This document shows, piece after piece, positions 5,552-40,831 of a stretch of DNA of 64,000 nt. Positions within the stretch are counted from its first letter, which is position 1. Each line of letters opens with the position of its first letter. The DNA comes from Oricola nitratireducens (lineage in GTDB: Bacteria > Pseudomonadota > Alphaproteobacteria > Rhizobiales > Rhizobiaceae). The stretch is taken from contig NZ_JACZCS010000050.1 in the NCBI RefSeq assembly GCF_014904745.1, positions 186,001 to 250,000 of the forward strand. Direction: 5' to 3'. The position numbers and the translations under genes were made by a program. The notes beneath the pieces were generated by a model that worked only from the letters and a program-made list of their open reading frames with translations, was not told the DNA's origin and did not search any database.

Positions 5552-5780
5552 AATGCGCTCCGCGTTCCGTCAGCCTGTCGAAACCTGTTTCGCGGCGGTC
5601 TTGCGTTTGCAGGACCTGTTTTCCGGTCTCAAATACCATATATGTTTTACAAGTGTGCAGGAACAAGGCATATGCCGCCTGCCGTTGACCAAGAAACCGC
5701 AATTGCCGGTTTATTAATATGCCAGTGGTCCGTTTAACTCGTTCCGGCGTAATCAGACCGGAACTACGGGAGACACCTTG

Positions 5781-24397: not shown

Positions 24398-24438
24398 CGG
24401 TCCGATTGGCGCTTGCGGCAGGACGGCCTCGAACGGCG

Positions 24439-25188: not shown

Positions 25189-25271
25189 CTTATCCTCGAG
25201 AACCGGTCCGGGCCGGATGAACCGGTCGATTTGAGATACGCCCAGTCGACGATTCAATCAATGCCGAAATC

Positions 25272-25277
25272 GTATAC
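25272..25277. promoter_or_regulatory. GTATAC palindrome, possible GntR operator
   Basis: TCGTATACAAAA lies in the divergent region between the GntR gene and the transporter operon. FCD-type GntR proteins often bind TNGTNNNACNA-like dyads such as TGGTATACCA. Only the six-base core is symmetrical here, so support is weak. Confidence 0.25.
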
Positions 25278-25393
25278 AAAATTTGTGCACTCTGTATCCG
25301 AACTGCCTAAAAATTGATCGCACAACCTCCGAGAGAATCCTCCTGAAGTCCTTTTTCCGTTTAGTATCAAATAGATGATAACTCTTTCGAGAC

Positions 25394-25409
25394 TGGCACG
25401 GTGATTGCA
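25394..25409 (+). promoter_or_regulatory. Sigma-54 (RpoN) promoter of the transporter/racemase operon
   Basis: TGGCACGGTGATTGCA matches the sigma-54 consensus TGGCAC-N5-TTGCW exactly, with GG at 25395-25396 and GC at 25407-25408, ten bases between them. Transcription would start near 25420, about 22 bases before the ATG at 25442. RpoN promoters need an enhancer-bound activator such as NtrC, so this ties the operon to nitrogen supply or a dedicated activator. Confidence 0.8.
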
Positions 25410-25441
25410 AAGCTTTGCGCATATCCGCGTGGAGCTTCACT

Positions 25442-26431
25442 ATGTCCCAGCCGTCGGCGCTAGAACTTGTCCATCTGACGAAACGCTATGGCGACACGGT
25501 CGCCGTCGACACGATCAACCAGAAAATTCCCGGCGGAACCTATACCTGCCTGCTCGGCCCGTCGGGCTGCGGCAAGTCCTCGACGCTGCGGATGATCGCG
25601 GGACACGAGACGACCTCATCGGGCGACATCCTTCTCGGCGGCAAGAACGTCACCGATCTTCCGCCGGCGAAACGCGGAACGGCGATGATGTTCCAGAGCT
25701 ACGCGCTGTTTCCTCATCTCAGCGTTGTCGACAATGTCGCCTTCAGCCTGAAGATGAAGGGCGTCGACAAGGCGGCGCGCCATGCAAAGGCGCGTGAACT
25801 CCTCGCCCTTGTCGACATGACGACTTATGGCGACAGGCTTCCCGCACAATTATCCGGCGGCCAGCAGCAGCGCGTCGCGCTGGCGCGCGCGTTGATCACC
25901 GAGCCTTCGATCCTGCTTCTCGACGAGCCCCTGTCGGCGCTCGACCCGTTCCTGCGTCTTCGCATGCGCACGGAACTGAAACGCCTGCAGCGCGAACTCG
26001 GCATTTCCTTCATCCACGTGACGCACAGCCAGGACGAGGCGCTCGCGCTCGCCGACCACATCATTGTCATGAATGGAGGCCGGATCGAGCAGGACGGGCC
26101 ACCACAAACGGTGTTCGACGCCCCGCGCACGGAATTCGTCGCGCGCTTCATCGGCGGCCACAACATCGTCGGCGCGGAAAGCGGAAAGCTCGCCGTTCGC
26201 GCCGACCGCATTCAGCTGTCGCGCAATAAGCCCGAGGCAAGGGCGCTGACCGCGGTGGTGCAAGCGATCGAATATCTCGGCACCAGCGTCAATGTCGCCG
26301 TCGAGGCGCCGGACACCGGCGAACTGAACGTCACCGTCGGCGACACGGCATTTTTCGCCAATCCATTAGAAATCGGCCAGTCCGTCTTCCTGTCGTGGAA
26401 GCCGGAGGACGCCCACGCGCTTGCGGCCTGA
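25442..26431 (+). CDS. ABC transporter ATP-binding protein (PotA-like)
   Basis: 329 residues from ATG 25442. Walker A GPSGCGKSSTLRM, Q-loop MFQSYALFPH, signature [15 protein letters not shown], Walker B ILLLDEPLSALDP and H-loop HVTHSQDEAL are intact, followed by a C-terminal TOBE domain (about residues 245-325). It is the energising subunit of a spermidine/putrescine-class importer. First gene of the sigma-54-dependent operon; the binding protein follows 64 bp downstream. Confidence 0.93.
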   Translation: MSQPSALELVHLTKRYGDTVAVDTINQKIPGGTYTCLLGPSGCGKSSTLRMIAGHETTSSGDILLGGKNVTDLPPAKRGTAMMFQSYALFPHLSVVDNVAFSLKMKGVDKAARHAKARELLALVDMTTYGDRLPAQLSGGQQQRVALARALITEPSILLLDEPLSALDPFLRLRMRTELKRLQRELGISFIHVTHSQDEALALADHIIVMNGGRIEQDGPPQTVFDAPRTEFVARFIGGHNIVGAESGKLAVRADRIQLSRNKPEARALTAVVQAIEYLGTSVNVAVEAPDTGELNVTVGDTAFFANPLEIGQSVFLSWKPEDAHALAA

Positions 26432-26495
26432 ACCGCAAAAGGCTTGCGGCATCCCGCCGTCGGCCAGCCACCGGAAGGGAAAAGGAGCACCCACC

Positions 26496-27788
26496 ATGAG
26501 CACCACGAAGGAAAAGAAGGGCGTCAGCAGGCGCTCCGTTCTCAAGGGCGCGGCGGCGACCGCCGGCGCCGCAATCGGATCTGGCGCGATTACCGGATTT
26601 CCGACTGTCTGGGCGCAGAACATCAAGGACGTGACGCTGCGCCAGTTCGGCACCGGTGTGTCGAACCTGAACGACGTAGCCCAGAAAGTGAAGGAAGATC
26701 TCGGCTTCACGCTCGAGATGACCGCGCTCGACTCTGACGCCGTCACACAGCGCGCCGCCACCCAGCCCGGCAGTTTCGATATCGCCGATATCGAGTACTG
26801 GATCTGCAAGAAGGTCTGGCCGACCGGCAACCTGCAGGCGATGGATACGTCGAAGATCAAGAACTACGACAAGATCGTCGGCATCTTCAAATCGGGCAAG
26901 CTGACGCCGGAATCGGTGATCGCCCAGGGTACCGCGCCGCATACGGTCGGCTTCGTCGACGGTCCGGACGGCAAGACCTTCGCCAAGGAAGAGACCGGCT
27001 GGATGACCCTCATCCCGACCATCTACAACGCCGATACGCTGGGTATCCGCCCGGACCTGATCGGCCGCCCGATCGAGAGCTGGACGGAACTGCTCAACCC
27101 AGAATTCAAGGGCAAGGCCTCGATCCTCGACATCTCGTCGATCGGCATCATGGATGCGGCGATGGTTTGTGAAGCCATGGGCGAGATCAAGTATGGCGAC
27201 AAGGGCAACATGACCCGCGAAGAGATCGACAAGACCATGGCGATCTTCACCCAGGCCAAGAAAGACGGCCAGTTCCGCGCCTTCTGGAAGACCTTCGACG
27301 AGAGCGTCAACCTGATGGCGTCCGGCGAGGTCGTCATCCAGTCGATGTGGTCGCCGGCGATCACGGCAGTGAAGTCGCGTGGCATTCCGTGTGTCTACCA
27401 GCCGTTGAAAGAAGGCTACCGGTCGTGGGGCGGCGGCATCGGCCTGTCGAAGAACCTGTCCGGGCTCGAGCTCGAGGCCGCCTACGAATACATCAACTGG
27501 TATCTGTCGGGCTGGGTCGGCGGTTACCTGATGCGCCAGGGCTACTACTCGGCCGTTCCGGAAACCTCGAAGGAGTTCATGTCGGAAAACGAGTGGGGCT
27601 ACTGGTTCGAGGGCAAGGAAGCCACCGGCGACATCACCAGCCCGACCGGCGACAAGCTGGCCAGCGCCGGCGACACCCGCGACGGCGGCTCGTTCTACGA
27701 GCGCATGGGCCACGTCGCCTGCTGGAACGCCGTCATGGACGAGAACCAGTACATGGTTCGCAAATGGAACGAGTTCATCGCGGCGTGA
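26496..27788 (+). CDS. Extracellular solute-binding protein (spermidine/putrescine class, Tat-exported)
   Basis: 430 residues from ATG 26496, behind AGGAG. The N-terminus has a twin-arginine signal, GVSRRSVLKGAAATAGAA, so it is folded before export. The mature part is a PotD-like binding protein, with FDIADIEYWICKKVWPTG and the typical C-terminal helices (ELEAAYEYINWYLSGWVGGY). Its ligand is unlikely to be a plain polyamine given the neighbouring racemase and flavin reductase; a ring amide, hydantoin or pyrimidine derivative is more plausible. Confidence 0.9.
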   Translation: MSTTKEKKGVSRRSVLKGAAATAGAAIGSGAITGFPTVWAQNIKDVTLRQFGTGVSNLNDVAQKVKEDLGFTLEMTALDSDAVTQRAATQPGSFDIADIEYWICKKVWPTGNLQAMDTSKIKNYDKIVGIFKSGKLTPESVIAQGTAPHTVGFVDGPDGKTFAKEETGWMTLIPTIYNADTLGIRPDLIGRPIESWTELLNPEFKGKASILDISSIGIMDAAMVCEAMGEIKYGDKGNMTREEIDKTMAIFTQAKKDGQFRAFWKTFDESVNLMASGEVVIQSMWSPAITAVKSRGIPCVYQPLKEGYRSWGGGIGLSKNLSGLELEAAYEYINWYLSGWVGGYLMRQGYYSAVPETSKEFMSENEWGYWFEGKEATGDITSPTGDKLASAGDTRDGGSFYERMGHVACWNAVMDENQYMVRKWNEFIAA

Positions 27789-27864
27789 TGCCGTGATGTG
27801 ACAGCGGCGCCCCGGTTTCCCTTTTTTCCGGGGCGTCGTCACCGAACAACCGGGCGGACGATCC

Positions 27865-28788
27865 ATGTCGAACCAGACACAAGCCATTCCCCTCGATACG
27901 ACGGCCTCAACGCCGGGGCGGCGGCGCGCGACCTACGGCCTGTCCGACGCCGTGACCGGCTGGCTGCTTTCCCTGCCGCTGACGCTGGTTCTCCTGTTCT
28001 TCCTCGTCCTGCCGATCGTGATGATCGTCATCGTCAGTTTCTGGGGCGCGACCGAATTCTCGATCTATCCGGCCTTCCAGTTCGACAACTACGAATTCCT
28101 GCTGACCTCGCCTGTGACCTATTCGGTGTTCCTGAACACCATCAAATATGCGGTTATCACCTGGGCTATCACCCTCGTGCTGGGCTTCACCATCGCCTAT
28201 TTCCTGGCCTTCCACGTCCGCACGCTGACGTGGCAGATCGTGCTGTTCCTGCTCTGCACCATCCCGTTCTGGACATCGAATATCATCCGGATGATTTCCT
28301 GGATCCCGTTCCTCGGGCGCAACGGCATCGCCAACTCGACGCTGATGTCGATGGGCGTGATCGACGAACCGCTCGAATGGCTGCTGTTTTCCGACTTCTC
28401 GGTGATCCTCGCCTTCGTGCATCTCTACACGCTGTTCATGGTGGTCCCGATCTTCAACACCATGATGCGTATCGACAAATCGCTGATCGAGGCGGCCTAT
28501 GACAACGGCGCGACGGGCCTCCAGACGCTGACCAATGTCATCATCCCGCTAACGAAACCCGGCATCATGATCGGCTCGATCTTCGTGGTGACCCTGGTGA
28601 TGGGCGACTTCATCACCGTGCGGTTCATGTCCGGCAGCCAGAAGGCCAATGTCGGGCGGCTGATCTCGAACGATATCGCGCTGCTGCAATATCCGTCCGC
28701 GGCGGCGACGGCGGTGGTGCTTCTCGTCACCGTCCTGATCGTGATCGGCATCCTGCTTCGCTTCGTCGACATCAGGAAGGAGCTCTGA
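27865..28788 (+). CDS. ABC transporter permease (PotB-like)
   Basis: 307 residues with six membrane helices. The EAA loop is EAAYDNGATGLQTLTNVIIP near residue 212. A polar N-terminal tail of about 30 residues precedes TM1. It forms a heterodimeric inner-membrane channel with the next gene product, one base apart. Confidence 0.93.
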   Translation: MSNQTQAIPLDTTASTPGRRRATYGLSDAVTGWLLSLPLTLVLLFFLVLPIVMIVIVSFWGATEFSIYPAFQFDNYEFLLTSPVTYSVFLNTIKYAVITWAITLVLGFTIAYFLAFHVRTLTWQIVLFLLCTIPFWTSNIIRMISWIPFLGRNGIANSTLMSMGVIDEPLEWLLFSDFSVILAFVHLYTLFMVVPIFNTMMRIDKSLIEAAYDNGATGLQTLTNVIIPLTKPGIMIGSIFVVTLVMGDFITVRFMSGSQKANVGRLISNDIALLQYPSAAATAVVLLVTVLIVIGILLRFVDIRKEL

Positions 28789-28789
28789 C

Positions 28790-29629
28790 ATGGAAAAACG
28801 CTCCCGTTCCTTCCATGTCCTCGCCGCGGTTTTCACTCTTTTTCTGGTCTTCCTTTACGGGCCCACAATCACCATCGCGATCCTGTCTTTCCAGGGGCCG
28901 CAGGGCGGACTGACCTTTCCGATGCGCGGCGTTTCGCTCAACTGGTTCCACGAACTCTTCCAGCAACAGGCCGTCGGCGATATCTGGGGCAGCTTCGCGC
29001 GTTCCCTCGTTCTCGGCCTGATGGTGATGGTAACGACCGTCGTGGTCTCGGTGATGGGCGGACTTGCTTTCCGCAAGCGCTTTCCCGGATCGGGCGTCAT
29101 CTTCTACCTGATCATCACCTCGCTGGTGATCCCGTCGATCCTGGTGTCTCTCGGCGTCGGCCTGATCTTTTCGCAATCCGGCCTCGACGTGCACTGGTCG
29201 ACCTCCGGTTTCGGGTCGCAACTGACATGGACCCTGCCCTTCGGGCTCCTGATCATGTTCGCGGTGTTCAACCGCTTCGACAAATCCTACGAGGAAGCGG
29301 CGCGCGACCAAGGCGCAACCGCGTGGCAGACGGTCCGCCATGTCGTCCTGCCGATCATCGCGCCGATGCTGATCGGTGTCGCCCTGTTCGGCTTCACGCT
29401 GTCCTATGACGAGTTCGCGCGCACGCTCCTGACCGCCGGCAGCTACAACACGCTGCCGCTCGAGATCTACGGCATGACGACGAATGTGACGACGCCCGTC
29501 ATCTTCGCGCTCGGCACGCTGACCACCGGCTTTTCGCTGATCATCATCGCGGTCTTTCTCGTTGCCGTCCTGATGATGAACCGCCGGCGCGCCCGCCTCG
29601 GTTCGGATGCCGGCAAGGGCATGGTCTGA
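28790..29629 (+). CDS. ABC transporter permease (PotC-like)
   Basis: 279 residues with six membrane helices; the EAA loop is EAARDQGATAWQTVRHVVLP. Its stop shares bases with the start of the racemase gene (TGATG), so the two are translationally coupled. This joins the transporter to the catabolic genes in one operon. Confidence 0.93.
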   Translation: MEKRSRSFHVLAAVFTLFLVFLYGPTITIAILSFQGPQGGLTFPMRGVSLNWFHELFQQQAVGDIWGSFARSLVLGLMVMVTTVVVSVMGGLAFRKRFPGSGVIFYLIITSLVIPSILVSLGVGLIFSQSGLDVHWSTSGFGSQLTWTLPFGLLIMFAVFNRFDKSYEEAARDQGATAWQTVRHVVLPIIAPMLIGVALFGFTLSYDEFARTLLTAGSYNTLPLEIYGMTTNVTTPVIFALGTLTTGFSLIIIAVFLVAVLMMNRRRARLGSDAGKGMV

Positions 29630-30330
29630 TGCACATCCTCGTCATCAACCCGAACTCGACGGCCGCCATGACACGCTCGATCGAGGCGGCGGCCCTCGAC
29701 GCCGCCCGCGCGAAGACCCGGATCACGGCCGTCAATCCGGACGATACGCCACCGGCAATCCAGGGGCCGGAGGACGGTGCGGCGGCCCTGCCCGGTCTGT
29801 TCGCCCTATTCGACCGCGAGGTCTTGGAGAAAGGCGGCTACGACGCCTGCGTTATCGCCTGTTTCGACGATACCGGGCTGATGCCCCTGAAGCGGCGGTC
29901 GCCGATCCCGGTCATCGGCATCGGCGAAGCGGCGTTTCTCGCGGCCATGCTGGTCGGCGACAGCTTTTCGGTCGTCACGACACTCGGCGTCTCGACGCCG
30001 GTCATCGAGGCCAATCTCGCGGCCTATGGCATCGCCGCGCGCTGCCGAAAGGTTCGCGCCTCGGAAGTCCCGGTGCTCGACCTCGAATCCGACAAGGACA
30101 GCGCCTGCGACACGATCGCCGCGGAGATCGCGCTGGCAATCGCGGAGGATGAGCCGAATGCGATCGTGCTCGGGTGCGCGGGCATGGCCGATCTCGCGAT
30201 GACGCTGTCCGACCGGTTCCGGCTGCCCGTCATCGACGGCGTGGCGGCCGCGATCACGTTTGCGGAGGCGCTGCGCGCTTCCAATGCCGACCGGTGGGCG
30301 GGCTCGCGGCGCGGAGAGCGCGTCGCATGA
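29629..30330 (+). CDS. Asp/Glu/hydantoin racemase family protein
   Basis: 233 residues. It starts MHILVINPNSTAAMTRSIEA, the hallmark N-terminus of hydantoin racemases, and has both catalytic cysteines in equivalent blocks: ACFDDTGLMPL (about residue 83) and IVLGCAGMADL (about residue 184). The enzyme inverts the alpha carbon of a substrate such as a 5-substituted hydantoin, allantoin or an amino acid. Coupled to the permease upstream and to the flavin reductase downstream. Confidence 0.88.
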   Translation: MHILVINPNSTAAMTRSIEAAALDAARAKTRITAVNPDDTPPAIQGPEDGAAALPGLFALFDREVLEKGGYDACVIACFDDTGLMPLKRRSPIPVIGIGEAAFLAAMLVGDSFSVVTTLGVSTPVIEANLAAYGIAARCRKVRASEVPVLDLESDKDSACDTIAAEIALAIAEDEPNAIVLGCAGMADLAMTLSDRFRLPVIDGVAAAITFAEALRASNADRWAGSRRGERVA

Positions 30331-30974
30331 CAGCGACGCATGTGCATTTCGACTTTTCGGCGCTTGGCGAGCGCGACCGTTACAAACTCCTGATCGGCAC
30401 GGTGATCCCCCGTCCGATCGCGTTGGTGACGACGCTTTCCGCCGATGGCCGGCGCAATGCCGGTCCGTTCAGCTTTTTCAACGTGCTGACGCACGATCCG
30501 GCGATCGTGGCGATCGGCGTCGAGAACCACGCCGACATGCGTTTCAAGGATACCGCGCGCAATATCCGCGAAACCGAAGAATTCACCGTTCACATTGCCG
30601 ATCACGCAATGGTCGAGCAGATGGAGGTCTGCGCCATCAGGTTCGGCCCGGACGTGGACGAAATTGCAGAGGCCGGACTGACGACCGTGCCCGGCGAGAT
30701 GGTGCGTAGCCCGCGTATCCTGGAAGCGCCGGCCGCGCTCGAATGCCGGCGCTTCATGACACTGGAGGTCGGCCGCGCCCGCGAAATCATCCTTGGCGAG
30801 GTGCTCGGCATCTTCGTGCGCGAAGACCTCGTCGACGACCGTCTGCATGTGGACCAGCACGGCATGGACGCGATCGGCCGTCTCGGCGGCTACAGCTATG
30901 CGCGCACCCGCGACCAGTTCGAGATCAAGACGCAGTCTGTCGAGGAATGGGAAAGCCGGAAGATCCGCTCCTGA
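30327..30974 (+). CDS. Flavin reductase family protein
   Basis: 215 residues from ATG 30327, overlapping the racemase stop (ATGA). The FMN-binding split-barrel domain has RPIALVTTLSADGRRNAGPF, FFNVLTHDPAIVAIGV and KDTARNIRETEEFTVHIAD. Such proteins reduce FMN for a partner monooxygenase, or act alone on small substrates. No partner monooxygenase lies in the operon. It completes a transport, racemase and flavin unit likely used to obtain nitrogen from a cyclic compound. Confidence 0.88.
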   Translation: MTATHVHFDFSALGERDRYKLLIGTVIPRPIALVTTLSADGRRNAGPFSFFNVLTHDPAIVAIGVENHADMRFKDTARNIRETEEFTVHIADHAMVEQMEVCAIRFGPDVDEIAEAGLTTVPGEMVRSPRILEAPAALECRRFMTLEVGRAREIILGEVLGIFVREDLVDDRLHVDQHGMDAIGRLGGYSYARTRDQFEIKTQSVEEWESRKIRS

Positions 30975-30985
30975 CACAAGTCCCG

Positions 30986-31486
30986 TCAGACCGGGAAACG
31001 GTTTTTCAGGATAATGGCCCAGGCGGTCCGGTTCAGTTCCTCGATCTTCCTGATCGAATGCCTGATCCGTTCGATCTCTTCATCATCCAGGTCCTGCGAC
31101 TTGCCGAACTTGATGCCCTGTTTCGTCTCGGCAATCCGCATCAGGATCGTTTTCGCGTGCCCGCCTTCCTCGTCGAACGAGTAGAGGCTGTGATTGTAGT
31201 GGTTCTTGTGCTTCAGGATTTCCTTCATCTCGCCAGTCAGCGCGAGGATCTCGTCGCGTGCCGGTCCCGGCACCCGCTCCAGTTTTGCCAGGCGATCCAC
31301 CAGGTCGAAACGGGCGCGCGTCGTGTTGAGCGTCAGGAAGATGATGATGGCGGTTTCCTTGTCGACGCCCGCTAGGCCGGCGATGATGTGGATCAGAAGC
31401 GTCTCGGTGTTTGCCCACGAGTAATTCATCCGCCCGAGAAGCAGCAACACATCGTCGAAACTCTTGAGGGTCATAGCGGTTTCCAT
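30986..31486 (-). CDS. Helical cytosolic protein of unknown function (possibly HEPN-like)
   Basis: 166 residues, predicted all-helical, without signal peptide or membrane segment. It contains FDDVLLLLGRMNYSWANTET, ARFDLVDRLAKLERVPGPAR and, in the middle, EILKHKNHYNHSLYSFDEEG. The last block resembles the R-N-x-x-x-H motif of HEPN-type proteins with Lys replacing Arg; this is weak. It follows the LuxR regulator gene by 11 bp on the same strand, so it is probably co-transcribed with it and may act in the same pathway. Confidence 0.7.
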   Translation of the reverse strand: METAMTLKSFDDVLLLLGRMNYSWANTETLLIHIIAGLAGVDKETAIIIFLTLNTTRARFDLVDRLAKLERVPGPARDEILALTGEMKEILKHKNHYNHSLYSFDEEGGHAKTILMRIAETKQGIKFGKSQDLDDEEIERIRHSIRKIEELNRTAWAIILKNRFPV

Positions 31487-31497
31487 CGCCCATTTTC

Positions 31498-32280
31498 CTA
31501 GTTCAGCGCCGGTCCAACCGCTTTCTTCGAGGCATAGTGGTCGAGAAAGATGCCGGCCGCCTCGGTGCGGTTGGTCGCGCCGAGTTTGGAGATGATGTTG
31601 TGCATGTGCAGCTTGACGGTGTGTTCCGACAGTCCAAGCTGCTCGGCGATGTTCTTGTTCTGAAAGCCCTGCGAGGCAAGTTCCATGACTTGCTCCTCGC
31701 GCCGCGTGAGCTTCCTGAGGCGGCTGCCACCGCCCCTGTTGCCTGCCGGTTTGCGCGGCGCCGGCCTCGCGGCCGAGGTGTCGTTTTCGAGCCGCTTCAC
31801 GAATGCTTCCATCACTTCCGGCGGGCAGTAATTACCGCCATTCAGCATCAGGCGGATGGCCGAAAGCCAGATATCGAGCCGAAGATTCATCGGAAGGCAG
31901 GACCGGACGACTCCACCGCCAAAGAACTCGTTCAAGCACTGATCCGACGGCTCGATCTGGTTGAAGGAGATGCAGATAATCGGGTTAGGAACTATCTGGC
32001 CAAAGACGTCTGCCTCGCCGAGCAAAGCGGCGCAAAGCGAGTCGTCGACGACAATCAGCCGCACCTCGCCCTGCGAGCCGGTATACCATCGTCTGGCTTC
32101 GTCGATATCCGCGAAACGGCGAAATCCGAAATCAGGGAATTCGTAGGTCAGGTTACGGGTCAAACAATCGGAAAAGGCCTGCGTAGGGCCGATATAGATA
32201 ATGGTCGGCCGGTCCGGTACCGTGCTCTCTTTCCGCGTTTTCGTTTCGTCTTTCGGAATTTGGTCAAAAGCCGGTCGCAT
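31498..32280 (-). CDS. LuxR/NarL-type transcriptional regulator
   Basis: 260 residues. The C-terminal LuxR helix-turn-helix is clear: KLTRREEQVMELASQGFQNK, then NIAEQLGLSEHTVKLHMHNI and SKLGATNRTEAAGIF. The N-terminal 150 residues look like a degenerate receiver (IIYIGPTQAFSDCLTRN, VRLIVVDDSLCAAL), but I cannot identify the full acidic pocket, so phosphorylation is doubtful. It diverges from the type I secretion cassette over 748 bp, and inverted repeats lie immediately before its start. It is the prime candidate regulator of that cassette. Confidence 0.88.
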   Translation of the reverse strand: MRPAFDQIPKDETKTRKESTVPDRPTIIYIGPTQAFSDCLTRNLTYEFPDFGFRRFADIDEARRWYTGSQGEVRLIVVDDSLCAALLGEADVFGQIVPNPIICISFNQIEPSDQCLNEFFGGGVVRSCLPMNLRLDIWLSAIRLMLNGGNYCPPEVMEAFVKRLENDTSAARPAPRKPAGNRGGGSRLRKLTRREEQVMELASQGFQNKNIAEQLGLSEHTVKLHMHNIISKLGATNRTEAAGIFLDHYASKKAVGPALN

Positions 32281-32300
32281 TCTAGTCTCCCTCTACTAGA
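32281..32300. promoter_or_regulatory. Inverted repeat TCTAGT-N8-ACTAGA upstream of the LuxR gene
   Basis: TCTAGT (32281-32286) and ACTAGA (32295-32300) form a perfect 6-8-6 dyad that abuts the LuxR start codon. The same half-site recurs at 32542-32547 and, in reverse, at 32686-32691. Autoregulation by the LuxR-type protein is inferred. Confidence 0.5.
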
Positions 32301-32390
32301 TGCCCCGAAACGACCCGGACTCATTCTTATGCGAGCATATTTCAGCCCTTTTACGTTCCCAGCCGTCGCATCGGGTTTTATCACTAACCC

Positions 32391-32417
32391 GATCGTTCGC
32401 ATATACATCGAACGATC
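32391..32417. promoter_or_regulatory. Inverted repeat GATCGTTCG-N9-CGAACGATC
   Basis: A perfect 9-bp dyad with a nine-base spacer lies 110 bases from the LuxR start, inside the divergent region. It is not followed by a T run in either direction, so an operator is more likely than a terminator. The binding protein is unknown. Confidence 0.5.
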
Positions 32418-33028
32418 AGTCCCGCCCCCAAAAGGCGTTCATTTTCAGTAATCCAATATGGCAATCCGAAGTTTTCCACAGACGGGACTAAATACTCTTC
32501 CCCCGCGACCGACGGCATACAGTTCGACACAGATAGATTTATCTAGTCCGGCCAGCGACAAAACAATCAGTTTGACGTAGGGGAACCGACACCGCGCATG
32601 TCTTGTTGCCGGATCGCCGGCACAATGCCTTGAAAACACAAAGCTTATCGAACGGCCGGCATATCGGCCCCGGCAAGCCGCAAGTACTAGACCCAATTCA
32701 CGACTTCATTTCCGGCGCCCCCCCGGACACGATGTGATTCAGGCCGCAACCGCGCGGCGATCACATGCAAACGGGTGCAGGGAATGTCTTGGTCTAAGCG
32801 ACCGGGCAAACGGGTTCCTTTTGCGTGTCGACGTGTCGACAGCGGCGAAACGCCAGGGAAAGGAGGACACCCCGAAAATCTCACATTTCGACTGTGGGCG
32901 GTTCGATCGCGCAAGCGGCCGGGCGCCAAAACCGGACGCGAATGTCCAAGTTAAAACCAGGAAGCTGAATGCCGCTTGTTAGAAGAATGGCGGCGAGGTT
33001 TTCCCTGAAATATTTGTGAGGAAAAACC

Positions 33029-34780
33029 ATGTCTAGAAGAAATCACAACCAGGCCCAGCTCGAAGCTCAGGGCCAGGGACAACTCGAAGCTCAGGGTCAG
33101 GGGCAGCTTGAAGCCCAAGGCCAGGGTCAGGGCCAACTCCAGGCTTCGCTCCAGGGTCAAGGCCAGGGTCAAGAGCAATCGCAGAGCAGCGAAAGCGTGA
33201 ACCTGAATGGCAATGGCAATGGCAACGGGAACCTGAATGGCAATGGCAACGGGAACCTGAATGGCAACGGAAACGGGAACCTGAATGGCAACGGAAACGG
33301 CAATCTGAACGGCAACGGCAACGGCAACCTGAACGGTAATGCCAATTTCAATGCCAACTGGAATTCGTCCGACTCGACGTCCAATAGCGATTCGACGTCC
33401 AGCAGCGCCAGCACCTCGGCAAGCGCAGCAGCCGCGACGGCCAACGTCAACGTCAACATGGAAGGCTATATTCCGACCGATGACGACTTCGCCGACATAG
33501 ACCTGTCCGGCGGCGCGCATGTCGATCAACTGCTCGTCAATCGCGACGGCGAGATCAACTACAATCCCGGTGACGACGTCTCGATCGAGGATGTCCTCAA
33601 CGATGCGCTCAACGGCGCCGGCAACGACAGCGGGATCGTTTTCAGTCAGAACAACCATCTGGTCGACAATGACACTCTGAGCAATCCGAGCGTTTCGAAT
33701 AATGGCGGAACGTTCACCCAGAACGGTGACGCAACCGGCGGCAACGCGACAGCCGACGAAGGCATCAAGGCCGAAGGCGCAAGCGGCGGCGATGCCGATG
33801 CCAATGGCGGCAGCGGCGATTATGGCGGCTCCGCATCAGGCGGCTTTGCCGGCGCACTGGGCGGCATCGGCGGTTCGGCCTTTGGTGGCGGAGCAACCGG
33901 CGGCGCCGGTGCGGCTGGTGGAACCGGCACGGGTGTCGGCGTCGGCCTCGGCGGACTGGCGGCCGGTGTCGGCCTCGGCGGCGCCGGCGATAACGGCGGT
34001 GCAGGCGGTAGCGGCGGTAGCGGCGGTGCAGGCGGCCAGGCGAATGGCGGCACGGGTGGCACGGCGAACCCCGGAGACGGTGGCAGTAACAGCAATTCGG
34101 GCGATGGCGGAGCTGGCGGCTACGCCGATCCGGACGCGACCTCCACTGCAAACGCAGCTGTTCCCCCTGGCGGTCCCGGCTTCGCTGCAGCCGCTTCGGG
34201 CGCGATTGCCGGTAAGGCAAACGCCGGCGATGGCGGCGATGGCGGCAATGGCGGTGACTCCGGCGATGGCGGAAATGCGACCGGCGGACTCGGCGGTGGC
34301 GGCACCGCCGGCCTTGGCGGCCTTGGCGGCCTCGGTGGCGCAGGCGGCTCCGCAGATGGCGGCAATGGCGACGGCTGGGCCAGCGCGAATGACGGCACCG
34401 GCACGGGCACCGGCAGAGCCGACGGCGGCGCCGGCGGTGACGGCGGCGGCGCCTTCGGTGGTGTCGCATGGGCCGGCGACGGCCTTGGCGGCATGGCAAG
34501 CGTTGGCGCGGCGAATGGCGGCGACGGCGGCGACGGCGGCAACGGCGGCACGGCAACGGCCGGCGCCGGCGGTGACGCCGGCATGTGGGGATCGCACAAT
34601 ACGGCGGACACCTACATCAACGGTCTGTCTGAAGCATCCGCCGACGCGATCCTGGATACCACCGCGTTCAACCAGAGCATCGTGATGGGCGCCAACATCC
34701 TCGGCAACACGGTCGACATGACCGTCGTCGGCGGTGACTTCCACGATTCGATCATCGGCGGTGACGATTCTTCGTCATAA
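33029..34780 (+). CDS. Low-complexity Gln/Asn/Gly repeat protein, putative type I secretion substrate
   Basis: 583 residues with no signal peptide. Parts in order: residues 8-50 are QGQGQLEA-type repeats; 58-104 are six NLNGNGNG units; 113-138 are a Ser/Thr/Ala linker; about 140-235 is a non-repetitive acidic part with VFSQNNHLVDNDTL; about 235-520 is glycine-rich (GGDGGNGG, GGLGGLGG); the last 60 residues are non-repetitive, with VVGGDFHDSIIGGDD. Cysteine is absent. It is first in a cassette with a companion protein, an ABC exporter and an HlyD adaptor, which supports leaderless export. It is not a canonical RTX protein. I recall similar rhizobial proteins being labelled fibrinogen-binding protein, without evidence. 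A role as adhesin or matrix filament is inferred. Confidence 0.85.
   Translation: MSRRNHNQAQLEAQGQGQLEAQGQGQLEAQGQGQGQLQASLQGQGQGQEQSQSSESVNLNGNGNGNGNLNGNGNGNLNGNGNGNLNGNGNGNLNGNGNGNLNGNANFNANWNSSDSTSNSDSTSSSASTSASAAAATANVNVNMEGYIPTDDDFADIDLSGGAHVDQLLVNRDGEINYNPGDDVSIEDVLNDALNGAGNDSGIVFSQNNHLVDNDTLSNPSVSNNGGTFTQNGDATGGNATADEGIKAEGASGGDADANGGSGDYGGSASGGFAGALGGIGGSAFGGGATGGAGAAGGTGTGVGVGLGGLAAGVGLGGAGDNGGAGGSGGSGGAGGQANGGTGGTANPGDGGSNSNSGDGGAGGYADPDATSTANAAVPPGGPGFAAAASGAIAGKANAGDGGDGGNGGDSGDGGNATGGLGGGGTAGLGGLGGLGGAGGSADGGNGDGWASANDGTGTGTGRADGGAGGDGGGAFGGVAWAGDGLGGMASVGAANGGDGGDGGNGGTATAGAGGDAGMWGSHNTADTYINGLSEASADAILDTTAFNQSIVMGANILGNTVDMTVVGGDFHDSIIGGDDSSS
33053..33180 (+). repeat. Coding repeats QGQGQLEA
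   Basis: Three near-identical 24-base copies encode QLEAQGQG, followed by irregular QGQG repeats. They sit next to the NLNGNGNG array and share its eight-residue period. Confidence 0.85.
33200..33340 (+). repeat. Tandem 24-bp coding repeats (NLNGNGNG)
   Basis: Six consecutive copies of a 24-base unit (the first is 30 bases) encode NLNGNGNG. Copies differ only at silent third positions (AAT/AAC, GGC/GGG/GGA). Such an array can gain or lose units in frame by slippage, so strains may differ in length. Confidence 0.9.
33733..34590 (+). repeat. Glycine-rich coding repeat region
   Basis: Short GGX and GGXGGX units rich in Gly, Ala, Asp and Asn run for about 285 codons. The pattern looks like RTX at first sight, but lacks the regular aliphatic-x-Asp positions of GGxGxDxUx nonapeptides. 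Confidence 0.85.
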
Positions 34781-34788
34781 TCGACTGC

Positions 34789-34845
34789 GGGACCGGGAAA
34801 CCGGTCCCCTCCCATACCGGACCGCGCGGGCAAGCCGCGCGGTCC
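34789..34845 (+). promoter_or_regulatory. Two tandem hairpins between the repeat protein and companion genes
   Basis: Hairpin 1 is GGGACCGG-GAAA-CCGGTCCC (8-bp stem, GNRA tetraloop, 34789-34808). Hairpin 2 has arms GGACCGCGCGG and CCGCGCGGTCC (11-bp stem, five-base loop, 34819-34845). No T run follows either, so they are more likely mRNA-stabilising or processing structures than a full terminator. They could raise the level of the first gene relative to the export genes. Confidence 0.65.
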
Positions 34846-34902
34846 CAATAACGATAATACCAGGTGCCGTGCAGCGGGACGTAACGACACCGAAACGAGG
34901 AC

Positions 34903-36885
34903 ATGAACGTGTCACTTGATCCGATTACCGAAGCCATCGCGCACTTCATCGGCTTTTTCGAACTGGCAGTGGAGGAAGCACGCGGACGGCTCGACTATGA
35001 CGAGTTTCGCGCTCTCAAGGCGAAGCAGATGGACGGTGCCGAAATCATCGCCGTCGGCAATTTCGTCAACACGCCTTATCAGCTTCTGGATGTCCAACCG
35101 GACCTCCATTACCAGCCCTTCGACCAATCCGTTGTCCCGCTCTGGGCGCGCAGCCACGTAGACGGCCATTATCTTCCGCCTGCCACTGCCGGCGCCGATA
35201 CGCCACACCCGAATACGCTGCCGGGACTTGGCGGTTTCCTGCTTTCGCTCGGCACGCGTTTCGAATTCACGGTGACACCGCCCGGTTCGATCGCCGTCGT
35301 CGCACAGCAGGTCAATCATGTATACGACAACGACTACCTGAACATGACCGACGCCAAGGTCGATACGATGTCCAGCGACTATCTGGACGCCGGACTCGGC
35401 GTGCTGGCGGCCGAAGCATCGGATATCGATCCCATCGGTGCCTTGACGCAGCCGGATTCGGAGATCGCCATTGCCGACCTGGTCGAGGAAGTGGCGCGGA
35501 TCGTCCGAAGCGACCAGGAAGAAGGGCCGTCCGAGGCGCAAATCCATGTCGCGGCGGGCGCCGACGCCGACGGCATTCATTCCAACGGCGTTCGCGTGGA
35601 CGAGGCCCCTCTCCTTTCCGACTACCTGCCGGAAAACGAGGAACCGGAGGAACCTCAGCCGGTATCCGTTGTCCACGGCGAAGGCCACATCGAGATGCAT
35701 GGCGACGTGACGCTCGATGCGGGCTCCAACCTGCTCGTCAACGAGGCGTTCATCGGCAGCAACTGGATCGTCGCACCCGTCTTCGCTGTCGCGGGCGATA
35801 CGGTCCACGTCAATATCGTCAGCCAGGTCAATGTCTGGTCCGACGCCGATACAATCGGAAGCGAATTTTCCGGTTGGCTGGCGCCGGACGCCGCGGCGAC
35901 CCGGGCGTTCAACATCGCATCCGTCACGCTTGATCCGGCGCCGCCGGCCGATGCGGACGCCGAGCCGGCGCTCTCCGGGCTGCCGGAGCAATGGCATGTG
36001 ACGCGGCTCGACGGAAATCTCGTGCTGTTGAACTGGATCGAGCAACTCAGCTTCATGACGGATCACGACACGGCGATCCTGACGCATGCGGGCTCGCAGT
36101 CGCTGCTACAGACCGGCGGAAATACGACAATCAATTCCTTTTCACTGGGCGAGTTCGGCAACTACTACGATCTCGTCGTCGTCGGCGGCAGCTACCATTA
36201 CGCCAATGTCATAGAACAGAAGAACATCCTGCTGGACGACGACTTCGTTTGGTCGCAGGGTGACTTCGCCACTTCCGGCCACGCGAGCCTGTCGACAAGC
36301 GACAACCTGCTCTGGAACCAGGCCAATATCCATGCCGCGGGCCAGATGCAGTTCGAGTCGATGCCCGACCACTATCTCGAGGCAATGCAAAGCCTCGCGA
36401 GCGGCAGCGACGACCTGAATGCGGGAGTTCTCGGCGACGCGGCGTTTGCCGGTTTCGACTCCCTCAGCGTTCTCTATATCTCCGGCAGCATTCTGAGCCT
36501 GAAATACATCTCGCAGACCAACATTCTCGGCGACAGCGACCAGATCGCCATGTTCGGCGAGGAACAGGACGGCGTTCCGACGGACTGGACGATCAGCACC
36601 GGCTCGAACGACCTTCTCAATATCGCGTCCATCGCCGAGGGGGGCGTCGACTCGACCGTCTATACGGGTGGCGAGATATATTCCGACGCCCTGCTCTACC
36701 AGGCCGAATTGATCTCCAACGACCCGTTCGGCGAAATCGGGGCTCCGTCGGATTTGGCAAGCGAGGCGGTCTTGTTTCTTGCCGACGACATGCTCGACCC
36801 CGATTGCGACCACGACAACGCCGACGCCGGCACGCATGCGCCTGACACGGTGCATGTGGATGTCATGCAAACCATGCTTGCCTGA
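34903..36885 (+). CDS. Type I secretion-associated companion protein with repeated IxQxNxxxDxD motif
   Basis: 660 residues, acidic, no signal peptide, no transmembrane helix and one cysteine near the C-terminus. A degenerate unit of about 20 residues recurs: PGSIAVVAQQVNHVYDNDYL (127-146), then near residues 297, 370, 428 and 527, for example NIVSQVNVWSDAD and KYISQTNILGDSD. A weaker copy lies near 588. The pattern is Gly-x-hydrophobic, then (I/V)-x-Q-x-N, then D-x-D. It lies between the repeat protein and the ABC exporter genes, with GAGG before the ATG. It may be a second substrate, or a chaperone or capping partner. I recall such proteins being annotated only as type I secretion protein. 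Confidence 0.82.
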   Translation: MNVSLDPITEAIAHFIGFFELAVEEARGRLDYDEFRALKAKQMDGAEIIAVGNFVNTPYQLLDVQPDLHYQPFDQSVVPLWARSHVDGHYLPPATAGADTPHPNTLPGLGGFLLSLGTRFEFTVTPPGSIAVVAQQVNHVYDNDYLNMTDAKVDTMSSDYLDAGLGVLAAEASDIDPIGALTQPDSEIAIADLVEEVARIVRSDQEEGPSEAQIHVAAGADADGIHSNGVRVDEAPLLSDYLPENEEPEEPQPVSVVHGEGHIEMHGDVTLDAGSNLLVNEAFIGSNWIVAPVFAVAGDTVHVNIVSQVNVWSDADTIGSEFSGWLAPDAAATRAFNIASVTLDPAPPADADAEPALSGLPEQWHVTRLDGNLVLLNWIEQLSFMTDHDTAILTHAGSQSLLQTGGNTTINSFSLGEFGNYYDLVVVGGSYHYANVIEQKNILLDDDFVWSQGDFATSGHASLSTSDNLLWNQANIHAAGQMQFESMPDHYLEAMQSLASGSDDLNAGVLGDAAFAGFDSLSVLYISGSILSLKYISQTNILGDSDQIAMFGEEQDGVPTDWTISTGSNDLLNIASIAEGGVDSTVYTGGEIYSDALLYQAELISNDPFGEIGAPSDLASEAVLFLADDMLDPDCDHDNADAGTHAPDTVHVDVMQTMLA

Positions 36886-36896
36886 GGGGTGCGGGA

Positions 36897-39320
36897 ATGA
36901 ACGACATCCGTAACTTCCTGAACCGCTCATACGCCCCCTTGAGGGCCGACGAAAAGCCCGTCGCCGATCCGGATGCGCCGCGCGGCGACGCGCTGGACGA
37001 CCTTATCCGCGAGCTCGACGCGTTGACCGCCGGATTGCAGCGCGAAGCAGGCCGGAGGGCATCGGCCACGGAGGTGGAGGAGGCGAATCCGGCCCCGGAC
37101 AGCCCCATCTCCGAGCCAGAGGAAAGCGACGGCGAACAGGAGCCTATCGCGGAGATCGTCGATCCGGATCCGATTTCGGAAATTTCCGACCCCGAGCCGG
37201 CTGTCGAAACACCCGAACAAAAAATGTACCCGGAGCCTGGCGAGCAGAAACCCGCCGCGGATCCTGCCGGCTGGTCCCCGCGTCAAAACAACGGCGTGCC
37301 GCGACAGGAATTCGTACAAGTTCCGAGCACGGGACGGCTCGATCAGGCCACACCTCAACCGGCGGACATGCGCGCCGCGGATGCTCCTGAGCCCGAGGAA
37401 ATGCGCGCTGCGGATACGCCGCAGCCGGAGGAAATGCGTGTCGCCGAACCGCCGACAAGCGCACCGATCAGCGCGCGCACGATAGACGCCGACAAGGGGC
37501 CCGTGAAAACGCGCGAAGCGGAAGCCGGAGCCGGTGGCCCGGCCGACGGCGGGCGTTCGGGATCCGGCAGTGGCGGTGGTGGCGGCCACTTCCACAAGCG
37601 GCTCGGCCCGGTCGATTTTTCGCGCAGCCTGAAGGCAGGAGTGAAGGCGGTCCGCTACAACCTGACCGTGGTCATGTTCTTCACACTCGCGACGAACATC
37701 CTCGTCCTGGCGATCCCGCTTTATCTCTTCCAGATCTCCGACCGTGTCTTCACCAGCCGCTCGACCGACACGCTCATCATGCTGACCGTCGTTATCGTCG
37801 GCGCGGTGATCCTCCAGGTCATCTTCGACGCGATCAGGCGCTTCATATTGATGCGCACCGCCGTCGAGGTGGCTGCGCAGCTGGGCTCTCCGATTCTCAG
37901 CGCGGCGGCACGCGCCGCATTGCACAGCAACGGACGCGAATACCAGATACTCGGCGATCTGCAGCAATTGCGGTCATTCCTCGTCTCGGCGACGCTGCTT
38001 TCCTTTCTCGACGGACCGTTCACGCCCATTTTCATCGCCGCCATCTTCCTTATCCACACGGATCTGGGGCTGATCGTCGTCACCACCGCGTTGGCGCTTC
38101 TGATCATCGCTTTGTTCAACCAGCGGGCGACATCGGCTCCGTTCGCCGAAGCGACCCAATACCAGAGCAAGGCGAACCTGCATCTCGATTCCATGTCGCG
38201 CAATTCGCAGATCATCAACGCGCTCGCAATGATACCGGAAGCCGTCAGCATATGGGGCCGCGACACGGCGTCCTCGTTGCGTGCGCAGGTTCACGCACAG
38301 GACCGCAACATCATTTCCGCGTCGATCTCGCGCGGCGTTCGCCTGTTGACGCAGATCGCCTTGCTGGGCTGGGGGGCCAATCTCGCGCTTCACGGAGAGA
38401 TCACCGGCGGCATGGTGATTGCAGGGTCGATCGTCGCCGGCCGGGCGCTCGCGCCGATCGAGGGCGTCATCGAAGGCTGGAACCAGTTCCTGCTGTCGCG
38501 CTCGGCCTATGGCCGCATCGCCCAGTTGTTGACCGCGTCGCCGCTGAATTTCGAACGCCTGCGCTTGCCTAAACCGGAGGGCCGCCTCGATGTCGAACGG
38601 CTTCTTTACGTCCCGCAGGGCACGAAACGCGTCGTGCTCAACAGCATCAGTTTCGCGCTGCAGCCCGGCGACTCGCTTGCCATCATCGGGGATTCCGGCG
38701 CCGGCAAGACGACGCTCGGCAAGATGCTGGTCGGATCGGTCCTGCCGACTTCGGGCAGCGTACGCCTCGACCTGATGGATTTGCGCAACTGGGACCAGCG
38801 GCAGTTCGGCGAGAATATCGGATACCTGCCGCAGGACGTCCAGCTTTTCCCCGGCACGATCAAGGGCAACATCGCCCGGATGCGCGAGGATGCGACAGAC
38901 GCGCAGATATTCGAGGCTGCGGCGCTGGCCGACGTGCACGAAATGATTTCCTCGCTGCCGCAGGGATACGAAACCATCGTCGCGGCCGACGGCTCGCCAC
39001 TTTCCGGCGGCCAGAAACAGCGCATCGCCCTGGCGCGGGCATTCTTCGGCAATCCGCGCATGGTCGTGCTTGACGAACCGAACTCCAATCTCGACGCCAA
39101 TGGCGACCAGGCGCTGGCACGCGCCCTCGCCCATGCGAAGGCGAACAGGATAACCGTTATCGCGATCACGCAAAAACCGTCGCTGTTGCGGCATGTCGAC
39201 AAGATCCTGCTTCTGACCAACGGGACGGTGTCGATGTTCGGCCGCCGCCAGGACGTGCTTCAGGCGCTCTCCAACATGCAGAATGGCGGGCAGATTGGCC
39301 CCAATGGCCGGCAGGGCTAG
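36897..39320 (+). CDS. Type I secretion ABC transporter (PrtD family) with long N-terminal extension
   Basis: 807 residues against about 570-580 for usual PrtD proteins. Residues 1 to about 235 are acidic, Pro-rich and probably disordered, with the repeat MRAADAPEPEE / MRAADTPQPEE near 158-180 and a GSGSGGGGG linker. The membrane domain follows (six helices, about 260-540), with ILVLAIPLYLFQISDRVF. The ATPase has Walker A GDSGAGKTTLGK, Q-loop YLPQDVQLFPGTI, signature LSGGQKQRIALARA and Walker B MVVLDEPNSNLD. The H-loop reads AITQKPSLL, with Gln759 where His is expected. It exports the two proteins encoded upstream. Confidence 0.92.
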   Translation: MNDIRNFLNRSYAPLRADEKPVADPDAPRGDALDDLIRELDALTAGLQREAGRRASATEVEEANPAPDSPISEPEESDGEQEPIAEIVDPDPISEISDPEPAVETPEQKMYPEPGEQKPAADPAGWSPRQNNGVPRQEFVQVPSTGRLDQATPQPADMRAADAPEPEEMRAADTPQPEEMRVAEPPTSAPISARTIDADKGPVKTREAEAGAGGPADGGRSGSGSGGGGGHFHKRLGPVDFSRSLKAGVKAVRYNLTVVMFFTLATNILVLAIPLYLFQISDRVFTSRSTDTLIMLTVVIVGAVILQVIFDAIRRFILMRTAVEVAAQLGSPILSAAARAALHSNGREYQILGDLQQLRSFLVSATLLSFLDGPFTPIFIAAIFLIHTDLGLIVVTTALALLIIALFNQRATSAPFAEATQYQSKANLHLDSMSRNSQIINALAMIPEAVSIWGRDTASSLRAQVHAQDRNIISASISRGVRLLTQIALLGWGANLALHGEITGGMVIAGSIVAGRALAPIEGVIEGWNQFLLSRSAYGRIAQLLTASPLNFERLRLPKPEGRLDVERLLYVPQGTKRVVLNSISFALQPGDSLAIIGDSGAGKTTLGKMLVGSVLPTSGSVRLDLMDLRNWDQRQFGENIGYLPQDVQLFPGTIKGNIARMREDATDAQIFEAAALADVHEMISSLPQGYETIVAADGSPLSGGQKQRIALARAFFGNPRMVVLDEPNSNLDANGDQALARALAHAKANRITVIAITQKPSLLRHVDKILLLTNGTVSMFGRRQDVLQALSNMQNGGQIGPNGRQG

Positions 39321-39347
39321 GCGGATGGTCCGCACAGGAGCAGGGCA

Positions 39348-40685
39348 ATGAACAGTCTCGCAACCATCGAACACCTGGAATGGTATTCCGACGTTCCGCG
39401 CTCGATCCGCAGACACACGATCATCGGGCTCATTCTCGCCACTGCGACCTTCGGCGGGTTCGGCGCATGGGCGTTTACCGCACCGCTTGCCGCCGCGGTC
39501 GTGGCGCAAGGCAGTTTCGTCGCCACCGGCCAGAACAAGATCATCCAGCACCTGGAAGGCGGGATCATCAAGGAGATACTCGTCAGCGAGGGTGATCACG
39601 TCGACAGCGGGACTCCGATCATCCGGCTGGACGAATCGTCAGCGCAGGCGAACGAGCGTCAGCTCATTCTGCGTCTCGCCCGGCTCGAAGCCATCAATGC
39701 GCGCCTGCTCGCCGAATATAACGGCACGGAGACCGTCGATTATCCGCCCTATCTGGCCGATCAGCGCAGCGATCCGGAAATAGCCGCCATCCTCGACAGC
39801 CAGTTGCTCAGTTTCGAGTCGTCTCGGCGCAAGCTGGAAAGTGACCTTCAACTGCTGCGTTCGAACATGGAGTCACTGGAATTCCGCGCGGAGGGCTACG
39901 AGACCCAGCGGCTGGCCATGGTGCGTCAGTCGGATCTTCTCAAGGAGGAGCTGGCCGGAAAGCTGCAATTGCTGGAGGACGGCTTCATACGCAAAACCGA
40001 GACAAATGCCATCCGGCGGGCCATTGCGGATGCGGAAGGCCAGATCGGACGGCTCGCTTCGGAGGTCTCGGAGACCAAAGCCCAGATCAAGAAGCACCGC
40101 GAACAACTCCTGCAGACCGAGGCGAGCTACCGGCAAGCCGCCGTCGATGAACTGCAGTCCATCGATGCGGAACTTGACGGCGTTCGCGAACAGTCGCGCA
40201 ATGCGCAGAATGTGTTGAAGCGGGTCACCATCAACGCCCCGGTATCGGGGACCGTCGTGCGCATGCATTACCATACGCCGGGCGGCGTGATCGAAAGCGG
40301 CAAGAGCATTGCCGAGATCCTGCCGACCGACGTGCCGCTGATCATCGAGACGCAGATACCGCGCACCGATATCGACAGCGTGCGGGTTGGCCAGGCGGCC
40401 ACCATCCGGCTGACCGCGCTGAACAGGCGCACGACACCGGTGCTCAACGGCAAGGTCTTCTACGTTTCCGCGGACTCGCTACGCGACGCCAACCCGATGC
40501 AGCAGCGCGAGGTCTATATCGCCCGTGTGAGCCTTTCCGCGAATGAGATCCAGCGGGTGCCCGGCTTCAGCCCCACGCCGGGCATGCCGGCGGAAATCAT
40601 GATCCAGACGGCAAAACGAACCTTCTTCGAATATCTGTCGAAGCCGATCGTCGACAGCATGCAGCGTGCCTTCAGGGAGCGGTAG
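39348..40685 (+). CDS. HlyD/PrtE family periplasmic adaptor of type I secretion
   Basis: 445 residues behind GGAG. A short cytosolic N-terminus and one membrane helix (about residues 26-48) precede the adaptor. The lipoyl half-motif is IIQHLEGGIIKEILVSEGDHV, trimmed to its core HLEGGIIKEILVSEGDHV. A long coiled coil follows at about residues 100-285. The second lipoyl half INAPVSGTVVRMHYHTPGGV and the beta-barrel end the protein. It connects the ABC exporter with an outer-membrane TolC-type channel, which is not encoded in this window. Last gene of the cassette. Confidence 0.93.
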   Translation: MNSLATIEHLEWYSDVPRSIRRHTIIGLILATATFGGFGAWAFTAPLAAAVVAQGSFVATGQNKIIQHLEGGIIKEILVSEGDHVDSGTPIIRLDESSAQANERQLILRLARLEAINARLLAEYNGTETVDYPPYLADQRSDPEIAAILDSQLLSFESSRRKLESDLQLLRSNMESLEFRAEGYETQRLAMVRQSDLLKEELAGKLQLLEDGFIRKTETNAIRRAIADAEGQIGRLASEVSETKAQIKKHREQLLQTEASYRQAAVDELQSIDAELDGVREQSRNAQNVLKRVTINAPVSGTVVRMHYHTPGGVIESGKSIAEILPTDVPLIIETQIPRTDIDSVRVGQAATIRLTALNRRTTPVLNGKVFYVSADSLRDANPMQQREVYIARVSLSANEIQRVPGFSPTPGMPAEIMIQTAKRTFFEYLSKPIVDSMQRAFRER

Positions 40686-40754
40686 GACTAACCCAGATCA
40701 GCGTCCGGGTCTTGGCGGAGACGTCGCGCTCCGGGAGACGGGCAAATGGCTGGA

Positions 40755-40831
40755 TGGCGACCCCGGCAGGATTCGAACCTGCGACCATCGGCTTAGAAGG
40801 CCGGTGCTCTATCCAGCTGAGCTACGGGGCC
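40755..40831 (-). tRNA. tRNA-Arg (anticodon TCT)
   Basis: 77 bases including an encoded CCA. Acceptor GGCCCCG pairs with CGGGGTC (one G-T). The D arm is AGCTCAGCTGGATAGAGC, the anticodon loop CTTCTAA gives TCT, and the T arm is GGTTCGAATCC. It reads AGA codons. It stands between the secretion cassette and the NDUFS4-like gene; no integrase or att duplication is seen beside it. Confidence 0.95.

Follow-up and report, generated by a model that had tools for sequence, protein, structure and literature searches.

According to the excerpted text of PMC5588039, BapA of Paracoccus denitrificans is a type I exported, acidic protein of low complexity, 2,211 amino acids (aa) long with 891 Asp-Ala repeats, and is needed for attachment. 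In rhizobia the exporter pairs toaDE and tobDE are described in the excerpt of PMC2275737 as orphan systems without known substrate. Here we describe an arrangement from Oricola nitratireducens (GCF_014904745.1) found in a window of 64,000 nucleotides, i.e. positions 186,001-250,000 of the forward strand of NZ_JACZCS010000050.1. In this window a PrtD-type ATP-binding cassette (ABC) transporter and its adaptor follow the genes of a low-complexity protein of 583 aa (REP) and of a companion of 660 aa (COMP). Together with a LuxR-type regulator and a protein of 166 aa (P166) they form a six-gene cassette which is real and widespread. The gene set is without an established name, and its carriers include many soil and marine bacteria. 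The cassette probably provides type I exported surface proteins and is related to known type I systems. Its features are the following (window coordinates).

30986-31486, minus strand: P166, 166 aa, conserved protein, predicted helical bundle
31498-32280, minus strand: LuxR/NarL-type regulator gene, divergent from the export operon, with GerE domain
32281-33028, no strand: divergent intergenic region of 748 bp, presumed promoter region of both operons
33029-34780, plus strand: REP, 583 aa, low-complexity, candidate main substrate
33029-33184, plus strand: REP Gln-rich repeat, QGQLEAQG units, residues 1-52
33185-33364, plus strand: REP Asn/Gly repeat, NLNGNGNG units, residues 53-112
33458-33778, plus strand: REP conserved middle domain, residues 144-250, with a single Q-x5-D-x-D at residues 207-215 (33647-33673)
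33779-34594, plus strand: REP Gly-rich block, residues 251-522, 44% Gly, optional insertion in the family
34595-34777, plus strand: REP conserved C-terminus (AFNQSIVMGANILGNTVDMTVVGG...), candidate type I secretion signal
34903-36885, plus strand: COMP, 660 aa, second candidate substrate
34921-35034, plus strand: COMP N-terminal helix, residues 7-44, near-invariant ExIxHFxGxF
35701-36714, plus strand: COMP predicted all-beta repeat core, residues 267-604, Q-x5-D-x-D at 308, 381, 439 and 538, outlier at 136
36897-39320, plus strand: PrtD-type type I exporter ABC transporter, 807 aa, residues 1-245 being a low-complexity N-terminal extension
39348-40685, plus strand: HlyD/PrtE-type periplasmic adaptor, 445 aa, TIGR01843
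24398-40754, no strand: 16.4-kb stretch with the cassette and an ABC-transporter operon, ending at the 3' end of the tRNA-Arg gene
40755-40831, minus strand: tRNA-Arg (tct), right boundary of the 16.4-kb stretch

An earlier reading of this DNA, made from the letters alone (the sequence-only reading), had called four same-strand genes and a LuxR-type gene diverging upstream. All four are present at the positions and sizes then given, with gaps of 122, 11 and 27 bp between REP, COMP, ABC and adaptor, and the regulator gene lies on the opposite strand as described, its product showing a GerE helix-turn-helix (72.5 bits). The four genes are indeed conserved together, but as a unit they are incomplete: P166, encoded only 11 bp behind the LuxR-type gene on the same strand, had been overlooked. 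A consensus scan of the 748-bp intergenic region gave no sigma-70-like site above chance.

Conservation was evaluated in two overlapping sets of loci. In the first set 199 genomes of the same family were searched; COMP is found in 41 of them including the window genome, and the surroundings of the other 40 were fetched. The second set derives from a genome collection with one genome per species, whereof the best 80 of 278 COMP relatives were kept. COMP, a PrtD-type ABC and a HlyD-type adaptor occur together in 40/40 same-family loci, there on one strand, and in 80/80 public loci. A low-complexity open reading frame (ORF) corresponding to REP precedes COMP in 39/40 loci, the sole miss being a contig start, and in 76/80 public loci, where the four misses have only 304-735 bases upstream (69 of the 76 were found by a strict C-terminal pattern, seven of these as short pieces, and seven more on reading). 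The genome survey, which the sequence-only reading had named as a possible refutation, did not refute it: COMP, ABC and adaptor are found in every COMP-positive locus examined, and REP ahead of them wherever the upstream DNA suffices.

P166 homologues (34-71% identity) are present in 69/80 and 38/40 loci. In the larger set the 11 misses all have at most 2.5 kb of DNA ahead of COMP; in the smaller set both misses are at sequence ends. Moreover, P166 is found in 41/41 COMP-positive genomes among the 199 (E 1.4e-19 or better), and in COMP-negative genomes it is matched weakly in three (E 5.6e-6 to 5.3e-4). The arrangement of the window, upstream on the opposite strand, is seen in 62/69 and 30/38 loci; an upstream position on the operon strand occurs once in each set (1/69 and 1/38). 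Since a LuxR-like gene directly precedes P166 in only 62/107 P166 loci, P166 is the more constant partner. Beyond these two, no neighbouring ORF of at least 110 aa recurs in more than 19 of the 80 loci.

By their titles all 80 public COMP loci belong to Alphaproteobacteria, legume symbionts included. In a class-wide draw the cassette is rare (1/384 other genomes). All six genes in one order with differing flanks are found on replicons of Cereibacter, Shinella, Qingshengfaniella, Paracoccus ferrooxidans and Sulfitobacter indolifex. P166 is 41-56% identical in these five annotated replicons, and REP, COMP and P166 are annotated as hypothetical protein. A further Sulfitobacter plasmid has 4/6 genes before the record ends, its COMP bearing the public label 'type I secretion protein ATPase'. 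This label (COMP homologue of L167, 14998-17106) was apparently transferred from the neighbouring gene; a Pfam scan of 63 COMP sequences gives no backing for it. Paracoccus denitrificans HAMBI 2443 yields matches to all six genes.

The exporter parts are assigned well above their curated cut-offs, the ABC to TIGR01842 (PrtD; 695.9 bits, cut-off 510.15) and the adaptor to TIGR01843 (394 bits, cut-off 208.65). In 30 COMP-positive genomes 75 matches to PrtD-type ABCs were listed. In a tree built from the cores of 41 cassette ABCs and from 21 further PrtDs of their genomes, the two groups are separated by a branch with support of 100/100, present in all 200 bootstrap trees; long branches were flagged by the tool. 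The cassette exporter looks dedicated because its ABCs form a clade separate from the 21 others, as proposed by the sequence-only reading for a low-complexity protein that is not of the repeats-in-toxin (RTX) type and its companion. The cassette ABCs carry a low-complexity N-terminal extension of 89-499 aa (n=41; the upper lengths are overestimated as ORFs were counted from the first start codon). In 20/21 other PrtDs the matching core starts at most 67 residues from the ORF start, the remaining one (L211) at 234. In the window the extension corresponds to 36897-37631; all twelve cassette extensions displayed end in a FHKRLGPVDF-like sequence, and 20/21 other PrtDs are without such length.

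The sequence-only reading had also stated that no TolC is present. This holds for the vicinity of the window cassette, where no outer-membrane factor is found, all PF02321 matches lying on contigs other than C62. The genome, however, has PF02321 genes on C51, on C64 in the vicinity of a further type I ABC, and weakly on C56. As no outer-membrane gene stands beside the cassette, the channel would have to come from elsewhere.

Both repeat blocks of REP described by the sequence-only reading are real arrays, detected by Tandem Repeats Finder at 33049-33130 and 33212-33333. Pairwise comparison of five 24-bp NGNGNGNL units reveals 26 synonymous and 0 non-synonymous differences, that of the three-unit Gln array 13 synonymous and 2 non-synonymous ones. 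The differences being nearly all synonymous, the repeats are kept by selection at the protein level. Among 39 REP measured, the polar N-terminal part consists to 60-85% of QNDESTKG with a net charge of -13 to -95, and its letters vary between members (QG, ES, DA, NE or DN repeats). A tail which stays polar and acidic despite changed letters fits a role as hydrated polymer. The middle domain is conserved as far as Paracoccus and Sulfitobacter. It is followed by a Gly-rich insertion of 300-468 residues in 31/39 members and by 58-78 residues in its place in the other eight. The C-terminus bears a GAN-type half-unit and then VVGG. In Qingshengfaniella alkalisoli REP (L226, 11635-14655) is 1006 aa long, its Asp/Gly-rich middle being greatly enlarged.

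Window REP matches no Pfam or NCBIfam family. Tandem GGxGxDxUx nonapeptides are absent from window REP and occur in 0/41 COMP; a match to the motif is present in 15/40 REP, the ten listed having one or two matches per protein. An RTX identity of REP or COMP is rejected by this count, in line with the earlier statement that REP is no canonical RTX protein. Hits of other kinds were taken as noise or composition: one REP (L070) scores above cut-off against the 17-residue UIM_2 model (E 3.6e-6) and another (L068) below, and window REP matches Asn-rich repeats of the circumsporozoite protein and others among PDB sequences at E 0.0028 and worse.

The COMP model consists of an N-terminal helix, a disordered stretch and a predicted all-beta repeat core, with a predicted local distance difference test score (pLDDT) of 76 overall, mostly >80 in core residues 267-604, and a predicted template modelling score of 0.72. 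Q-x5-D-x-D occurs on average 4.95 times per COMP (n=105, range 1-7, exactly five in 86) compared to 0.21 in shuffled sequences, and G-x-N-x3-N 3.36 times compared to 0.17 (105 COMP). The former motif is also found in REP, in the form Q-x3-hydrophobic-x-D-x-D in 86/88 members, once each in 85 (shuffles 154/4400). Profiles of REP score 32.3 (middle) and 32.0 (C-terminus) against COMP, the best of 100 column permutations reaching 21.7 and 24.0, with low pair probabilities of 32% and 43%; the C-terminal profile aligns to COMP residues 391-431. Owing to the shared motif and these scores REP looks like a minimal relative of the COMP array, preceded by a polar tail and in most cases containing a Gly-rich insertion. 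The Asp pairs are suggestive of Ca2+ binding. No credible relative of COMP is found in Pfam, NCBIfam or PDB sequences (COMP profile against PDB E 0.33 or worse). Matches of single COMP members to LRR_8, DUF11, AIDA, FapA and others (63 COMP, E 0.004-0.35) were taken as noise.

P166 is the most conserved cassette protein after the exporter parts and is without a domain model in the searched libraries. The model (pLDDT 86.9) predicts a helical bundle, by eye without obvious membrane segment, and the consensus contains RNxxxH. An R-x4-H motif in a helical bundle is a feature of the HEPN superfamily. Some P166 members match PqqD, Init_tRNA_PT or further models with E 0.003 at best, which was taken as noise; the P166 profile reached E 0.33 or worse against PDB sequences, and a fold search with the model gave no clear relative.

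The position of the cassette was compared to two congeners. Collinearity of both with the window extends to 24.4 kb and resumes at the tRNA-Arg (40755); the 16.4 kb in between (24398-40754) are missing from both at that site. Besides the cassette this stretch contains a GntR/FCD-like regulator and an ABC-transporter operon (by eye). The congeners carry cassettes elsewhere: their ABCs group together, while that of the window groups with two other genera (98/92). Likewise, window P166 is 71 and 69% identical to those two genera compared to 55 and 52% to the congeners. The simplest reading is a horizontal gain in the window lineage, with loss from the congeners as the alternative. An integrase-borne island was considered and rejected, as no integrase was recognised by eye among the ORFs of 24.4-40.7 kb (no family search made). 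A second copy of the tRNA end is not found in the window. Of the site at which the congeners carry their cassette, the right flank is found in the window genome at C42 in two pieces, and the left flank is unconvincing. Far from the cassette, the window contains a THF-II riboswitch (5730-5772, plus strand; Rfam RF02977, 50.3 bits).

Based on this analysis we slightly favour that the two proteins are co-exported and, once folded on the outside, assemble to form an adhesive or matrix layer. Control of the operon REP-COMP-ABC-HlyD would lie with the LuxR-type regulator and perhaps also with P166. ABC, adaptor and a TolC-like channel encoded elsewhere would then export unfolded REP and COMP in one step, whereby the exporter would read C-terminal signals of both; the C-termini are conserved within REP and within COMP. 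Export by the cassette is strongly implied. Outside the cell COMP would fold into its beta repeat array, the turns with their conserved Asp pairs probably binding Ca2+ as RTX turns do. REP, with one matching unit behind its long polar tail and usually split by the Gly-rich block, might dock on COMP or on other REP molecules to give a hydrated, acidic adhesive or matrix layer. A more specific variant, which we put forward only tentatively and consider doubtful, is an extracellular heteropolymer. In this case the non-RTX Asp-turn beta array of COMP would be seed or scaffold, to which REP would add with its single split unit, displaying interchangeable low-complexity polymers (polar brush, polyglycine bundle).

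Several observations weigh against co-export and assembly. The N-terminus of COMP has a hydropathy of 1.82, close to that of a signal-peptide control (1.90), and that of REP is not hydrophobic (-0.84; both crude counts); the earlier statement that both proteins lack signal peptides can hence be relied on for REP, but for COMP with its hydrophobic N-terminal helix it is no more than probable. A fold search with COMP gave no significant match, the top Foldseek hits being curli CsgA (E 0.2) and FapC (E 0.46). The placement of P166 varies, as it lies downstream on the operon strand in 6/69 and 7/38 loci. Polysaccharide genes are near the cassette in only 3/7 annotated plasmid loci, namely two Sulfitobacter plasmids and Shinella (L167, L168, L225) and not L224, L226, L227 or L228. 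Within the open-licence literature (titles and abstract beginnings) no such cassette and no experiment on any of its members was found, nor any described function for the gene combination, as the sequence-only reading had stated. Furthermore, the excerpts of PMC5588039 and PMC13235738 describe that attachment of P. denitrificans Pd1222 is nearly abolished without BapA or BapBCD, and all six genes are present in strain HAMBI 2443. Should Pd1222 also have and express the cassette, it would thus be insufficient for attachment in those conditions. On the two Sulfitobacter plasmids (L167, L168) the genes beside the cassette encode UDP-glucuronate decarboxylase, GalE, a family 2 glycosyltransferase and a GH26-like or beta-mannosidase-type hydrolase.

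Alternatively only REP might be exported, with COMP as a cell-bound anchor or assembly factor whose hydrophobic helix and beta array cap or tether REP at the envelope. The helix motif ExIxHFxGxF is among the most conserved COMP segments and hydrophobic like the signal-peptide control, and the extreme C-terminus of COMP (DxMQxMLA) is unlike that of REP, so that their signals may be of different types. However, a type I exporter is often adjoined by genes for its substrates (excerpt of PMC2275737), and COMP bears the same motif as REP. We regard this alternative as unlikely. Even less probable to us is a surface adhesin released by proteolysis. In the LapA/LapG system an adhesin is switched in this manner, and LapG belongs to PF06035. 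A PF06035 gene lies upstream of the cassette in 17/80 and 6/40 loci as well as in the window (11190-11792, plus strand; the genome has four), but most loci show none in the surroundings retrieved, and the window copy is the best of the four for 12/17 neighbours by small margins only. REP, moreover, is a small protein without RTX array. Being near only 17/80 loci, a LapG-type protease was rejected as specific partner and kept as a lead. A PilZ-like ORF (by eye; 10314-10913, plus strand) is located beside the window protease gene.

A contact-dependent antibacterial system is the least credible alternative and in our view very improbable. Two proteins with a type I ABC and an adaptor, as well as the Gly-rich composition, resemble Cdz of Caulobacter, whose two Gly-zipper proteins remain at the surface according to the excerpt of PMC5380434. 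In the cassette, however, the gaps of the operon leave no room for an immunity gene, and the only other constantly linked gene among the ORFs surveyed (at least 110 aa) encodes P166, a predicted helical bundle in which no obvious membrane segment is recognised by eye.

The cassette unites three families without domain model in the searched libraries (REP, COMP and P166) in one tightly kept unit. In addition, the natural swaps of the low-complexity tail could show whether sequence or only charge and length is selected. Of known assemblies, curli CsgA and FapC resemble COMP in having repeated beta units, which for COMP are predicted, with conserved Gln/Asn. Export routes and repeat spacing of curli and Fap differ from those of the cassette, and no Pfam match to a curlin or Fap family is found among 63 COMP (E<=1) or nine REP (E<=0.1). 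If true, the heteropolymer would correspond to the seed-and-subunit pair of curli, with type I export and a spread through horizontal transfer. By description only, CabABC of Vibrio vulnificus is similar in that the operon encodes a calcium-binding protein required for biofilm, a type I secretion system being mentioned in the excerpt of PMC4584020.

BapA-BapBCD, as far as the excerpted source describes it, likewise combines a type I ABC and adaptor with a low-complexity acidic substrate, and one REP (L043) also has an Asp-Ala tail. In contrast, the BapA cluster includes an outer-membrane gene whereas the window cassette has none beside it, and the cassette comprises two smaller proteins together with P166 and the LuxR-type regulator, a distinction drawn from descriptions. 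PrsDE and toaDE/tobDE of rhizobia are PrtD/PrtE-type exporters from the same bacterial order, for which the excerpt of PMC2275737 names no TolC. PrsDE exports many dissimilar proteins according to the same excerpt, whereas the cassette ABCs stand apart from the other PrtDs of their genomes. With REP and COMP this type I exporter clade gains a defined candidate cargo, and with it a putative non-RTX route to surface proteins.

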